NCBI GenBank assembly: GCA_024281995.1
Contig: JAMWZW010000005.1
Coordinates: 1 to 64,000, forward strand
From: Nitrosomonas sp.
GTDB taxonomy: Bacteria; Pseudomonadota; Gammaproteobacteria; Burkholderiales; Nitrosomonadaceae
DNA length: 64,000 bases
Direction of reading: 5' to 3'
In this document: positions 51,780 to 56,806 of the stretch, in pieces
Numbering within the stretch: position 1 is the first letter of the stretch
Layout: each line of letters opens with the position of its first letter
Made by a program: the position numbers and the translations under genes
Notes under the pieces: model-generated
Told to the model about the DNA's origin: nothing
The model's database searches: none
What the model saw: only the letters and a program-made list of their open reading frames with translations

Positions 51780-52337
51780 GTGCTGGCCTAAATGGCTGTT
51801 GAAAAACTTCCTGATAGTACTTTGAGTTGATGATAGAATTGAAATTTTACTTCGACCACCGCAAAAGTCCGAGCAATGCTAAACAACTGCATCAGCATCA
51901 ATAGGGACCACTTCAAGCATGGGTTGACTAAATTCTGCAGAAGGCAAGGCTTATGACCTTGTGTCATCTTTCTTCTCCATTAAATAGAGCAGAATCTGGT
52001 CATTCAAGGGAAAGGCAGCTCCATCAGCTTTCGTGTGCCCAATGGTCGACTAGATGGCGCTGCGCCACTTGATCATCGCTTTCAAGCTTTTAGTTACCCC
52101 TCGGTGCTGACATGAACGTAATATTCGTGTACCGGGTACAGCAACACCACGGTAACCGCGATCTACAATCGCTGAGTGTATGACTGTGTCACTTAGCATA
52201 CTCGCTTGCTCCAGGGCTTCGGGCAACGTATGACCATCATACGGATTCCCGGCATTGATCGGGCGCCCAGCACAAAACCTTCCTTCAACGTGGTGGTGAT
52301 CGACACCTTCACGCCAAACAGCTACGCAAACGTGCAA
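51780..52337 (-). pseudogene. IS5/IS1182-type transposase, C-terminal remnant
   Basis: The minus strand encodes GRPINAGNPYDGHTLPEALE, then SAIVDRGYRGVAVPGTRIL and MIKWRSAI, which is the catalytic C-terminal half of an IS5-like transposase. The glutamate-containing region that should follow WRSAIE is broken by a TAG. Beyond it, other frames still show HTKADG and, further on, LMQLFSIARTF-like and FHQLKVLSGSF-like tails. The N-terminal half is absent. It differs in sequence from the remnant at 50284-50959. Confidence 0.65.
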
Positions 52338-52544: not shown

Positions 52545-53144
52545 TTACTGTTTCCTTGTATAGATTATCTCCAGCATTTTCATTTCCTCGCCACCATGGT
52601 GAGTTCCGTACATGATGAATTCCTGGTTATTGCTATCCACGATCTTCCAGATAGCGCGATGGGACATGTGTCCTCCACCCACTTCGGCATGCCGTCCAGT
52701 CAGAGTAATGGTCTTGCCGTCGGCGCTTGGTGTGCCTTCCATCATGAAAATGCCTGTGCTCATGCTATCGATCCATGTCGAAACATACTGTTTGAGCAAG
52801 TTGTCGTATGCGATAGTCCAAACACCGGTATGGGGTTTGCCGTGCATGCTGCCGGTAATTTCTTGCTGGAGAAATCGACCTTCTAGTAACATTTTGATGT
52901 TTACTGAACCTGTTGACTCCACCGGTGGTTTCTGGGGATTCATCCATTCTTTCGTTTTTGTTGTCCAACTGCCTGTGAGACTTGCCAATAACTTGTGTTG
53001 TTCTCCAGGTGTAGCCAATTTTGTATAAATTTCCATCAGTTCTTCAGGATTCATAGGCTTGCCGCTTTTGGGGTCGTCGGCAATAGCGCTCGTTGTTAGC
53101 ACTATCGAAAACAAAATAACTAAAGCAAAATGTGAATACTTCAT
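52545..53144 (-). CDS. Exported DUF1579 family protein
   Basis: The 199-residue product has a signal peptide (about residues 1-22, MKYSHFALVILFSIVLTTSA) and a DUF1579 beta-barrel-like domain with the pattern LLASLTGSWTTKTKEW, GRFLQQEITGSMHGKPHTGV and YVSTWIDSMSTGIFMMEG. Its biochemical function is unknown. The ATG at 53144 has a strong AAGGAG; an earlier in-frame start (53246) is not supported. It is the last gene of the ECF module, 49 bp after a broken DUF1428 gene. Family members often accompany DGPF and VOC proteins. Confidence 0.75.
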   Translation of the reverse strand: MKYSHFALVILFSIVLTTSAIADDPKSGKPMNPEELMEIYTKLATPGEQHKLLASLTGSWTTKTKEWMNPQKPPVESTGSVNIKMLLEGRFLQQEITGSMHGKPHTGVWTIAYDNLLKQYVSTWIDSMSTGIFMMEGTPSADGKTITLTGRHAEVGGGHMSHRAIWKIVDSNNQEFIMYGTHHGGEEMKMLEIIYTRKQ

Positions 53145-53193: not shown

Positions 53194-53556
53194 TTAGAAA
53201 CTAACAATTGTCTTAAAACCACCATATGCCATTCGTTTACAGTCAAAAGGCGGTGAACTGGGATTCATCATTTTTTCCAGTCTCGGATCAGCCATGACAG
53301 CCTGATTAACGCGATCACGACGTTCTCTTGACTCGAAAACGATCCATGCAAAAATGACTGTCTCGTTTCCAGTGGCCCCAGCCAATTTATTGAACGATAC
53401 CCATTCTTTTTGATCGAGATCATTCCCTGCGCCCTCAATATACTCCAGAGCGCCATGCTCTTTTCAAACCGAACCGGCCAATTCGGCCATTTTCTTATAT
53501 TCATCCAGCTTATTCTGAGCAATTGGAATCACATAGCCATCAACATATTTTTCCAT
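53194..53556 (-). pseudogene. DUF1428 family protein, broken by in-frame TGA at codon 31
   Basis: One frame runs from an ATG at 53556 (MEKYVDGYVIPIAQNKLDEY) to a stop at 53194, with normal family length (120 aa). The only fault is a TGA at 53464-53466, exactly where the family has Trp in the W-KEHGALEY segment. The rest is conserved (GNETVIFAWIVFESRERRDR, MMNPSSPPFDCKRMAYGGF). A single TGG-to-TGA change explains it. DUF1428 proteins are small alpha/beta-barrel dimers of unknown function. No SECIS-like element is apparent, so recoding is unlikely. The inactivation looks recent, unless it is a sequencing error. Confidence 0.82.
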
Positions 53557-53604: not shown

Positions 53605-54070
53605 TTACCCGGCACATTCCACTGCTGCAGCTTGACGAATTTCCTCAGGACTGACATCCTGGATATGCGTTGCTATCGACCACTGATATCCGAAAGGATC
53701 TCTCACGCTACCGTAACGGTCGCCCCAGAACATATTATCAATCGGCATCGTTACGGTTGCACCGGCTTTAACGGCCCGATTAAAAACCATATCGACATCC
53801 TCAAATTGTAAGTGAATCGTGACAGGTGAACCTTTTAGCGTGAGCGGACTAAGACAATCCCATTATGGATTTTCGTCGACCAGCATCACGAGCGAATCGC
53901 CAATTCGGACACAGGCATGAATCAATTTTCCACCAGGACCTGGAACACGGATCATTTCAGTGGCATTGAATGCTTGCCGGTAAAATTCGATTGCCTTGGC
54001 GGCATCTGAACAAACCAAGTGTGGCGTAACGCTGTGCATGCCTTCAGGAATAGGGTTTACTATGCGACAT
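53605..54070 (-). pseudogene. VOC/PhnB-like glyoxalase-fold protein, broken
   Basis: The frame reads NPIPEGMHSVTPHLVCSDAA and KAIEFYRQAFNATEM early, then LVMLVDENP followed by TAA (53863-53865) where Glu would be expected before WDCLSPL. It continues to FWGDRYGSVRDPFGYQWSIA and a stop at 53605. The ATG with AAGGAG at 54070 is out of frame with this, so a second lesion lies near the N-terminus. VOC proteins bind a metal and act on varied small molecules. At least two lesions make function unlikely. It follows the third DGPF gene by 66 bp. Confidence 0.8.
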
Positions 54071-54136: not shown

Positions 54137-54553
54137 CTAACTGGCTCGCGTGTGTTCAAGCACACGGAACCGCTCGATAGCTTCGCCGGGTTCAAAATCA
54201 TCGAGCTCAAACAATTGCCGTACTTCAATTTCACAATCCTTTCCTTCTCCCGCAGGATTAGGGAAACGTTTGCTCCATTCAATAGCTTCGGCTTTTGATG
54301 CAACCTGAATTAAGGTATAGCCGGCGATAAGTTCTTTAGTTTCGGTAAAGGGGCCATCGATCAACGTTCGTTTATTTCCGTTGTATTGGATACGCCAGCC
54401 TTTTGAACTGGCTTGTAACCCGGATGCATCTAGTAACACACCTGCTGTGGCTAATTCTTCATGAAATTTTGCCATCTCTGCGATGAGCTGCTCTCCGGGC
54501 ATGACGTCTGCTTCCGAATCTTGGTTTGCTTTGACTATGATCATGTAACGCAA
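54137..54553 (-). CDS. DGPF/YCII-related protein 3, TTG start
   Basis: The 138-residue product is a DGPF-type YCII-like protein (dimeric alpha-beta barrel, function unknown). It starts RYMIIVKANQDSEADVMP, the usual family opening, when translation begins at TTG 54553, 7 bases after AAAGGAG. The nearest ATG (54544) is too far from that site, and the upstream ATG (54577) precedes it. The signature TLIDGPFTETKELIAGYTLI is complete. An ECF-type promoter (54626-54653) lies upstream. Broken VOC and DUF1428 genes follow. Confidence 0.85.
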   Translation of the reverse strand: MRYMIIVKANQDSEADVMPGEQLIAEMAKFHEELATAGVLLDASGLQASSKGWRIQYNGNKRTLIDGPFTETKELIAGYTLIQVASKAEAIEWSKRFPNPAGEGKDCEIEVRQLFELDDFEPGEAIERFRVLEHTRAS

Positions 54554-54625
54554 TTGATTTCTCCTTTGAATTGACATATGGAATCAAACGATCGATTGTT
54601 ATTCAGTAGTTTGATTCTGATGAGT

Positions 54626-54653
54626 AGTCGAATGACAACAAGGCAAATCGACA
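54626..54653 (-). promoter_or_regulatory. Predicted ECF42-type promoter (P2), before DGPF gene 3
   Basis: On the minus strand the sequence is TGTCGA (54653-54648), 17 bases, then CGACT (54630-54626). The same boxes with the same spacing occur at 55516-55543. Known ECF42 promoters have TGTCGA at -35 and a CGA-type -10, so this is a likely target of the sigma factor encoded at 55550-56806. It lies about 73 bases before the TTG start. Confidence 0.72.
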
Positions 54654-54676
54654 AGGTGGGCAAATATTTTTTCGGG

Positions 54677-55060
54677 TTATTTTTTGGAACGTCCATTTTC
54701 AGACAAATTCCCTATTATTTTCTCTGCCATTTCCCGGATCGGCCTTATCGGCCTGATTTCAATACTGCCAACCTGCGCGGGTGGAATTTTTGCGGCTAAT
54801 TGAATAGCTTCGTCCAGGTGCTGGGCTTCAATCAAATAAAAACCTGCTAGTTGTTCTTTGGTTTCAGCGAATGGCCCATCGGTAATGCTAACCTTACCGT
54901 CGCGAACTCTGACGGTGGTAGCGGTGTGCACCGGCTGCAGGGCTTCCGAAGCCAGGCAATGCCCGGATTTGCGGATCTGCTTGTCATAATTCAGGCAATC
55001 ACTATCGGGTATGGCGTCCAGAAGACTTTCCACACTATAAACGAGACACAGATATTTCAT
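54677..55060 (-). CDS. DGPF/YCII-related protein 2
   Basis: The 127-residue product begins MKYLCLVYSVESLLDAIPDS and carries VSITDGPFAETKEQLAGFYL, the DGPF signature, followed by EAIQLAAKIPPAQVGSIEIR. The fold is a dimeric alpha-beta barrel; reaction unknown. It follows DGPF protein 1 by 36 bp with a ribosome site AGGAGAAAG, so it is in the same transcript. It is clearly related to protein 1, suggesting a tandem duplication. Confidence 0.88.
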   Translation of the reverse strand: MKYLCLVYSVESLLDAIPDSDCLNYDKQIRKSGHCLASEALQPVHTATTVRVRDGKVSITDGPFAETKEQLAGFYLIEAQHLDEAIQLAAKIPPAQVGSIEIRPIRPIREMAEKIIGNLSENGRSKK

Positions 55061-55096
55061 AACTTTCTCCTGCTGAAAAGATCGTTAACGATTAAC

Positions 55097-55471
55097 TTAA
55101 CTCAGTCCAAGTACGTCCAAAGTTTGTGGATCATTGGCGATTGGCCGGATCTCTACACATCCTAATGCGGCTCCGGGAATTTTTGCTGCGACCTGAATGG
55201 CTTCATTCAAATCTCGCGCTTCGATCACGTAATAGCCGCCGAGCTGTTCTTTAGTTTCGATAAAAGGGCCATCGGTGCTTGAAATTTTCCCCTTACGTAG
55301 TCTGATGGTAATGGCTGCTGATGGCGGTAATAATCGATTGCAATCGACAAAATGTCCGCTCGCACGAATGTTGCTGGTAAATTCGCGATATTCTTCGTAA
55401 TGCTTATCGGCATCGGCTTGCGGCATTTGCTCCATGACTTTTTCGGCGCAAATCAAACAAAGATATTTCAT
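55097..55471 (-). CDS. DGPF/YCII-related protein 1
   Basis: The 124-residue product begins MKYLCLICAEKVMEQMPQAD and has the signature SSTDGPFIETKEQLGGYYVI, then EAIQVAAKIPGAALGCVEIR. It is the first gene after the sigma factor and has its own predicted ECF42-type promoter 45 bases upstream (55516-55543). DGPF genes are the hallmark neighbours of ECF42 sigma factors. Enzyme function is unknown. Confidence 0.9.
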   Translation of the reverse strand: MKYLCLICAEKVMEQMPQADADKHYEEYREFTSNIRASGHFVDCNRLLPPSAAITIRLRKGKISSTDGPFIETKEQLGGYYVIEARDLNEAIQVAAKIPGAALGCVEIRPIANDPQTLDVLGLS

Positions 55472-55515
55472 AGTGAATTCCTTATAACGGGTTGATTGAA
55501 ATGACTACACGCATT

Positions 55516-55543
55516 AGTCGATTGACAATAGCTAAAATCGACA
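55516..55543 (-). promoter_or_regulatory. Predicted ECF42-type promoter (P1), before DGPF gene 1
   Basis: On the minus strand TGTCGA (55543-55538) and CGACT (55520-55516) are separated by 17 bases. The downstream edge is 45 bases before the DGPF ATG at 55471. Bases around the -35 box (TTGTCGATTT at P2 and TGTCGATTT at P1) are also shared. Part of it lies in the short gap after the sigma gene stop, so it allows DGPF transcription independent of the sigma gene. Confidence 0.75.
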
Positions 55544-55549
55544 ATGAGC

Positions 55550-56806
55550 CTATTGATTTTGTAGTTCAGTCAGTCTTTTTTGCAGAAACCGGCGTTCAGG
55601 TTCTTGCTGAGTCAGTTGTAAGGCGTGTTGATAAGCTTCGATTGCTTCGTTGCGCTGTCCTAATCGGCGATGAAAATCAGCCTTGGTTGCATACATAAAA
55701 TGATAATCCGTGAGCTGACCTCTAGAAATCAACGCTTCAATCAGTTCTAATCCGATTGCCGGTCCATCACGCATGGCTATCGCGACAGCACGATTCAATT
55801 CGATGACGGGGGAAGGATAAATACGCAGTAATATGTTATACAGGCCGATAATTTCGCGCCAATCAGTCATTTCAGCGCTAGCGGCTTCGACATGAACGGC
55901 CGCAATAGCAGCCTGCAAAGTGTAGACTCCAAATCCTGGTAAACCAAGCGCGCGTTTTACCAGAACTACACCTTTATTGATCTGATCGCGATTCCAGAGT
56001 GTGCGATCTTGCTTGGCAAGCAATATCAAATCACCTTCGGCCGTGGTCCGAGCCTCGCGTCTGGAATCCTGTAACAACATCAATGCTAACAAACCTTGAA
56101 TTTCCGCTTGCGCGGGTAGCAACTCCAGTAGCAATCTGCCCAAGCGGATCGCTTCAGTGGAGAGATCGTGTCGCGTTAATGCTGTACCAGACGAAGCCGA
56201 GTAGCCTTCGTTAAAAACCAGATAGATAACTTGCAAAACGGTGTTGAGACGTTCGGCGAGTTGCCCGGGTGCAGGCACTTCATACGGTATTCTTGCTTCG
56301 CGAATTTTGGCTTTTGCGCGCACAATCCGCTGTGCGGCAGTTTTCGGCGCTATCAAGAAAGCACGGGCGATTTCCTCGGTGGTTAACGCGCAAATTTCAC
56401 GCAAAGTCAAAGCAATTTGCGCCTCTGCCGACAGGCTGGGGTGGCAGCACGTAAAAATCAATCGCAATTGATCGTCCTGCAGGTTGTCATCGTGTTCATC
56501 GTCAAAATTTACAGTAGCAGCGCCATGTTGCTCGGGAATTTCTTCCAATGCATCAAAGCGTTTATCGCGGCGAAATTTATCAATCGCTTTAAAACGCCCA
56601 ACAGAAATCAGCCAGGCACAAGGATTATCCGGCACGCCTTGCTGCGGCCATTGCTCCAATGCTGTTTGAAATGCATCATGTAAAGCTTCTTCAGCTTGAT
56701 CGATATCACCGATTAAACGTATCAAGGTTGCTAGTACACGTCTGTTTTCGTTGCGGTAAAGTAGCTCGAGGGCGGTAGAAAAATCTTGTTCGGGTACTTG
56801 AGTCAT
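55550..56806 (-). CDS. ECF sigma factor of the ECF42 type with long C-terminal domain
   Basis: This is a 418-residue alternative sigma factor. Region 2 (LYRNENRRVLATLIRLIGDI, EEALHDAFQTALEQW, WLISVGRFKAIDKFRRDKRF) and region 4 (LTLREICALTTEEIARAFL, TAAQRIVRAKAKIREARI) are clear. They are followed by about 240 residues (DUF6596/TPR-like) ending with a helical repeat region (FHRRLGQRNEAIEAYQHALQ). No anti-sigma gene lies nearby. In ECF42 factors the C-terminal extension is needed for activity and replaces an anti-sigma factor. The adjacent DGPF genes support this subtype. No TGTCGA motif precedes its own start, so autoregulation is not evident. Confidence 0.92.
   Translation of the reverse strand: MTQVPEQDFSTALELLYRNENRRVLATLIRLIGDIDQAEEALHDAFQTALEQWPQQGVPDNPCAWLISVGRFKAIDKFRRDKRFDALEEIPEQHGAATVNFDDEHDDNLQDDQLRLIFTCCHPSLSAEAQIALTLREICALTTEEIARAFLIAPKTAAQRIVRAKAKIREARIPYEVPAPGQLAERLNTVLQVIYLVFNEGYSASSGTALTRHDLSTEAIRLGRLLLELLPAQAEIQGLLALMLLQDSRREARTTAEGDLILLAKQDRTLWNRDQINKGVVLVKRALGLPGFGVYTLQAAIAAVHVEAASAEMTDWREIIGLYNILLRIYPSPVIELNRAVAIAMRDGPAIGLELIEALISRGQLTDYHFMYATKADFHRRLGQRNEAIEAYQHALQLTQQEPERRFLQKRLTELQNQ

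Follow-up and report, generated by a model that had tools for sequence, protein, structure and literature searches.

The window, that is, the whole stretch of 64,000 nucleotides analyzed here, carries a sigma factor gene followed on the same strand by genes for DGPF proteins. The locus raises the question of which promoters this sigma factor serves and whether its own gene is among the targets. ECF42 sigma factors are linked to DGPF (YCII-like) genes and use a TGTCGA -35 element and a CGA-type -10 element. A preliminary description of this DNA proposed that the sigma factor is of this type and transcribes two units from two matching promoters, but not its own gene. Our comparisons make it very probable that the locus is an ECF42 cassette in which the sigma factor directs RNA polymerase to two promoters, P1 and P2, and in which its own gene is read from another promoter. 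The features are listed in Table 1.

Table 1. Sigma factor gene, predicted promoters, and target genes, in the order in which they are read
Feature	Coordinates	Strand	Evidence or remarks
ECF42-type sigma factor, 418 aa	55550..56806	minus	Pfam domains, predicted model, dN/dS
P1, predicted promoter	55516..55543	minus	TGTCGA-N17-CGACT; -35 element begins 6 nt past the sigma stop codon
DGPF1, YCII family, 124 aa	55097..55471	minus	Pfam YCII, 3e-19
DGPF2, YCII family, 127 aa	54677..55060	minus	Pfam YCII, 2.2e-21
P2, predicted promoter	54626..54653	minus	TGTCGA-N17-CGACT, upstream of DGPF3
DGPF3, YCII family, 138 aa from the likely start TTG 54553	54137..54577	minus	Pfam YCII, 3.5e-15
VOC-like gene, broken	53605..54070	minus	tblastn, open 154-aa relative, 92% identity
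DUF1428-like gene, broken	53194..53556	minus	tblastn, open 120-aa relative, 92% identity
DUF1579 protein, 199 aa, open, final gene of the second unit	52545..53144	minus	Pfam, 1.3e-48

The sigma protein has a region 2 (residues 16 to 83), a region 4 (117 to 168), a DUF6596 domain (186 to 286), and a TPR-like C terminus in Pfam comparison. Sigma70_r2 and Sigma70_r4_2 score above the Pfam cutoffs, and other sigma regions are absent from the matches listed. The TPR models match weakly, under their cutoffs. The predicted structure, built from 36 aligned sequences including that of the window, is all helical (mean pLDDT, 82; pTM, 0.71), with helices spanning residues 180 to 417. The top five Foldseek matches among solved structures are TPR proteins (E values of 1e-4 to 1e-3), with low TM-scores of 0.3 to 0.5. 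The nearest solved chain to the sigma factor is M. tuberculosis SigL (E = 5.7e-4). DUF6596 has one match in the entire host genome. The closest named relative among the matches listed, from Nitrosomonas sp. Bin_38_1, is 93% identical, and the dN/dS is 0.12 against relative locus L168 and 0.16 against L169. No ECF42 model occurs among the Pfam and NCBIfam matches to the window proteins. By its sequence features, the sigma factor is of ECF42 type, as had been claimed: it has regions 2 and 4 only, a TPR-like extension that is about 200 residues long and includes DUF6596, YCII/DGPF neighbors, and two sites that match the ECF42 target promoter. It is probably governed via its own TPR-like C-terminal part, by analogy with other ECF42 members, for which the available part of a review reports control through the C-terminal extension (PMC8999054).

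The host genome has four YCII genes, three of them within the cassette directly behind the sigma gene. DGPF3 probably starts at TTG 54553, behind AAAGGAG, and its 138-aa relatives in L173 and L175 begin MRYMIIVKAN. Two further genes of the second unit carry the names VOC and DUF1428 from the preliminary description, and for VOC our own reading of the sequence gives the same name. The layout behind P1 and P2 fits the two proposed units, DGPF1-DGPF2 and DGPF3-VOC-DUF1428-DUF1579; however, the VOC and DUF1428 genes carry in-frame stops. In the VOC-like gene, the frame shifts close to the start and a stop lies at 53865-53863; the DUF1428-like gene has a stop at 53466-53464. Both genes are intact in three close relatives (L168, L169, and L182). 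Because both are broken here, DGPF3 and the DUF1579 protein are probably the only products of the second unit. The two broken genes suggest that this unit is decaying. The DUF1579 gene has a dN/dS of 0.22 against L168 and 0.09 against L169.

Several other observations concern this region and its surroundings. ECF42 sigma genes are expected to have no adjacent anti-sigma gene; the genes flanking this cassette, read by eye, look malate dehydrogenase-like and EngB-like. Behind the cluster lies a fragment of an IS5-family transposase (52050-52337, minus strand; NCBIfam, 6e-12, 45 bits against a cutoff of 275). The uneven synonymous divergence from L168 (DGPF1, 0.04; DGPF3, 0.10; DGPF2, 0.22; sigma, 0.29) is a hint of recombination inside the cassette (54137-56806). 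DGPF2 of genome G082 (L169, 4969-5349) is 68% identical, with a dN/dS of 0.53 and no open frame listed, and may be decaying there.

The motif TGTCGA-N17-CGACT occurs twice on the minus strand of the window, exactly where the preliminary description had placed it, in the gaps upstream of DGPF1 and DGPF3. When spacers of 16 to 18 were allowed, the same two sites were the sole matches in the 64 kb. Such a pair could in principle be a product of chance. The shorter form TGTCGA-N17-CGWC gave 6 matches in the host genome versus 4 in the control, and with up to two mismatches at spacer 17 the window held 16 matches versus 9.5 expected. The strict form alone is therefore informative. The mean number of strict matches in the shuffled window was 0.07, and none of 100 shuffles held two matches. 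Relatives have the motif in like placement, and the named loci described below hold 85 sites versus none in the control. The shuffles and reversed controls led us to reject chance, to which we assign next to no probability.

The host genome that we searched comprises 2.88 Mb and is 97.6% complete. It holds four matches to TGTCGA-N17-CGACT, versus none in the control. The expectation that hits would sit before DGPF genes held for P1 and P2, but the other two matches lie inside long open frames, which presumably encode a succinylglutamate desuccinylase-like protein (with the site antisense) and a DsbA-like protein. A refined pattern, TGTCGAW-N14-WWCGAC, matches only P1 and P2 across the genome and nothing in the reversed control. 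With one mismatch, this pattern gave 21 matches versus 28 in the reversed control; therefore, no further targets stand out in the host genome. The downstream element had been described as CGACT, which is present at both sites, but comparative base counts favor the fuller reading CGACTA.

We then compared the 125 genomes of the family. The sigma gene is patchy, being present in 25 of them (15 of 85 in the genus of the window and 10 of 23 in genus g3). Its incomplete copies are the fragments in G107, one of the two matches in G036, also a fragment, and a copy with a stop in G066. The 25 genomes with the sigma gene hold 70 motif matches (control, 13), and the 100 lacking it hold 43 (control, 79). 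The motif thus accompanies the sigma gene. Among 25 relative loci from 24 genomes (L097 to L121), TGTCGA-N16/17-CGWY lies within about 1.5 kb of the sigma gene in 20, and it occurs twice in 16. In these 20 loci it is always behind the sigma gene and on its strand, and in all but L106 and L110 the first site is upstream of a DGPF match. No motif occurs in the flanks of five loci: L107, where sites lie 3.5 to 4.7 kb behind the sigma gene; L118 and L119, which are only 46 to 47% identical; and L120 and L121, which are fragments.

Within the Nitrosomonas genus, both sites are kept at fixed spacing in nine other loci. In a gapless alignment of these loci with the window, P1 and P2 each show 15 invariant positions among the 27 of the motif, versus 5/68 and 6/68 outside, although 10 of the 15 are set by the search pattern and the lack of gaps lowers the outside figure. 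The informative points are therefore that both sites occur in all ten loci and that the TTT after TGTCGA is invariant. The first motif begins 6 nt past the sigma stop in the window and in L168 to L176, and 8 nt past it in G088 (L179). The 6-nt spacing was computed by script for the window, L168, L169, L172, L173, and L175 and read from a table for L170, L171, L174, and L176; in these last four, and also in L177 and L180, no sigma frame was recovered by the script. Neighbors of the cassette vary within the genus, as judged from loci including L168 to L170, L172, and L173: malate dehydrogenase adjoins it in the window, G082, and G046, and other genes do so elsewhere. Together with the patchy presence, this suggests that the cassette moves between places. 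Two sites match on both strands (L178, 4664-4691; L183, 183-210) and are possible two-way promoters.

The preliminary description found no motif before the sigma gene, and neither did we. In the 400 nt upstream, the best candidate has 3 mismatches in 10 and lies inside the malate dehydrogenase-like gene, and we rejected it as a self-directed promoter. The motif is likewise missing before the sigma gene in the 20 motif-bearing relative loci (flanks of about 1.5 kb). The exception in the family is G107, in which only fragments of the sigma gene occur, with a site about 1.85 kb upstream. The sigma gene itself is most likely read from a different promoter. In an alternative reading, the whole cluster is read mainly from that upstream promoter, with P1 and P2 playing a minor part. 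P1 is only 6 nt past the sigma stop, with no terminator-like site between, and the sigma transcript may extend into DGPF1-DGPF2 as well. However, the conservation of P1 and P2 at fixed spacing in nine other loci is hard to explain if they are unused. In addition, sigma-70-like matches in the region number 5, fewer than in shuffles (10.2); therefore, such matches do not pinpoint the promoter of the sigma gene. We regard transcription mainly from upstream as improbable and retain P1 and P2 as the main predicted start sites of the two units.

A survey of named loci covered the best 80 of at least 594 matches listed, from 1.5 kb before to 4 kb after each sigma gene. TGTCGA-N16/17-CGAC occurs on the sigma strand in 71 of these 80 loci. 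In all, the sigma strand carries 85 sites and the opposite strand 2, against 0 in reversed sequence; of the 85, 69 have a spacer of 17 and 16 have a spacer of 16. Nine loci are motif-less (L012, L018, L023, L032, L048, L052, L066, L070, and L083), and in L023 and L066 a site lies 1.8 to 2.3 kb before the sigma gene, outside the survey range. The base after CGAC is T at 71 of the 85 sites, and the next base is A at 81. Spacer 16 is found in the Nitrospira and Acidobacteria loci L015, L021, L026, L028, L036, and L042, and spacer length changes 6 times on the sigma tree.

These counts bear on another reading of P1 and P2, namely, as a near-palindromic operator (TGTCGA...TCGACT) of a dimeric DNA-binding protein, with no sigma promoter involved. 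TGTCGA and TCGAC are indeed inverted, and G106, G107, and G109 are among the relatives with both-strand matches. However, a perfect repeat needs an A after CGAC, and A is found there at 5 of the 85 named-locus sites and 0 of 33 family sites, versus T at 71 and 27. The repeat also needs a T before CGAC, and the 69 spacer-17 sites have T 34 times, A 31 times, G 3 times, and C once. Furthermore, the sites keep one orientation, and spacers of both 16 and 17 occur. The bases around CGAC and the fixed orientation led us to reject the operator, which we consider slightly less probable still than transcription mainly from upstream. The comparative tests in relative loci, the 125 genomes, and the 80 named loci support the ECF42 assignment, the target motif, and its association with DGPF genes.

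The position of the motif follows that of the YCII gene. In the 37 loci whose YCII genes all lie behind the sigma gene, the motif is only behind in 35, on both sides in 1, and absent in 1. In the 30 loci with the reverse arrangement, the motif is only before in 27, on both sides in 1, and absent in 2. YCII lies on both sides in 2 named loci and was not detected within 1.5 kb in 11. About half of the 80 best matches have the sigma-first order, which the missing self-control appears to accompany. A rapidly built tree of 81 sigma proteins requires 7 changes of position, but support is weak for 32 of its 78 inner branches, and the well-supported ones force only 1 or 2 changes. Such changes would mean that the wiring has switched within the ECF42 family. 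We tentatively suggest, at somewhat below even chances, that ECF42 has two wirings by gene order, YCII-first with possible feedback and sigma-first with feed-forward, and that self-activation is a changeable trait. A motif before the sigma gene is no proof of self-activation, and one YCII-first case speaks against this suggestion: in the accessible text on Sinorhizobium meliloti, the YCII-sigma operon is not raised on RpoE10 overexpression despite a motif overlapping its start site (PMC6180224).

Some sites are unlinked to the sigma gene. Six were selected as promising (in G095, G099, G102, G109 C23, G022 C33, and G052). The first three genomes, all of genus g3, have a common site, CGACTA included, far from the sigma gene (L186, 4613-4639; L188, 3099-3125; L189, 2819-2845, minus strand). 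The small gene behind it, within about 100 nt of CGACTA, shares about 70% identity with the cluster-end gene of L172/L175, and from reading we take it to be VOC-like. G109 C23 is a weaker case (43% identity, gene 220 nt away), and the site in G022 C33 lies 127 nt before a DUF1428-like gene. The distal site of G052 is inside an oppositely read frame, and no cassette gene follows it. Of the 13 sites from sigma-bearing genomes among the matches listed, 8 lie upstream of a cassette-type gene, each within the sigma cluster. Sites that no cassette gene follows in such genomes include those of G029 C24, G046 C8, G066, G068, G082 C47, and the distal one of G052. In sigma-less genomes, 1 of 22 sites (20 loci, among the matches listed) precedes a cassette-type gene (G021). 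A site before a cassette-type gene is seen in G021, G081, and G106, in which no sigma gene was detected, and those of G081 and G106, before a DGPF gene, lie near contig ends.

In the mechanism that we propose, the sigma factor, controlled by its TPR-like extension, would start transcription at TGTCGATTT-N14-CGACTA promoters. P1 would drive DGPF1-DGPF2, and P2 would drive DGPF3, the two broken genes, and the DUF1579 gene. With the sigma gene read from another promoter, the circuit would run forward only. We infer the use of P1 and P2, the start points, and the C-terminal control. With the backing of these comparisons, this work adds nitrifying bacteria to the range of a known sigma-promoter pair and sharpens the ECF42 motif to TGTCGAWTT and CGACTA. 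Relatives appear to carry unlinked targets of the same gene kinds, and loci with the promoter on one or the other side of the sigma gene would represent natural variants of one circuit.

We found no publication on a Nitrosomonas ECF42 in the openly licensed literature. The ECF42 sigma factors of Streptomyces venezuelae, which is of a different phylum, were reportedly the subject of Liu et al. 2018 and Wu et al. 2019. Their promoter has TGTCGA and CGA-type elements. Pseudomonas ECF42 loci share TGTCGA-N17-CGAC near the sigma and YCII genes, but most of them have both the motif and the YCII gene ahead of the sigma gene. According to the part of the review available, the extension of S. venezuelae ECF42 is TPR rich and spans about 200 residues, and a YCII gene is a conserved neighbor; the Nitrosomonas system shares both features, and Ecf-10 of P. 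putida is another ECF42 sigma factor (PMC8999054). S. meliloti RpoE10 has promoters of the form TGTCGG-N17-CGTC, as counted from sequences listed in the accessible text (PMC6180224). It shares the 17-base spacer, the YCII neighbor, and the small number of targets; however, its YCII gene lies before the sigma gene, its -35 element ends in G, and its -10 element is CGTC. The Nitrosomonas cassette is an ordinary example of the already known ECF42 system, with two of its target genes broken.
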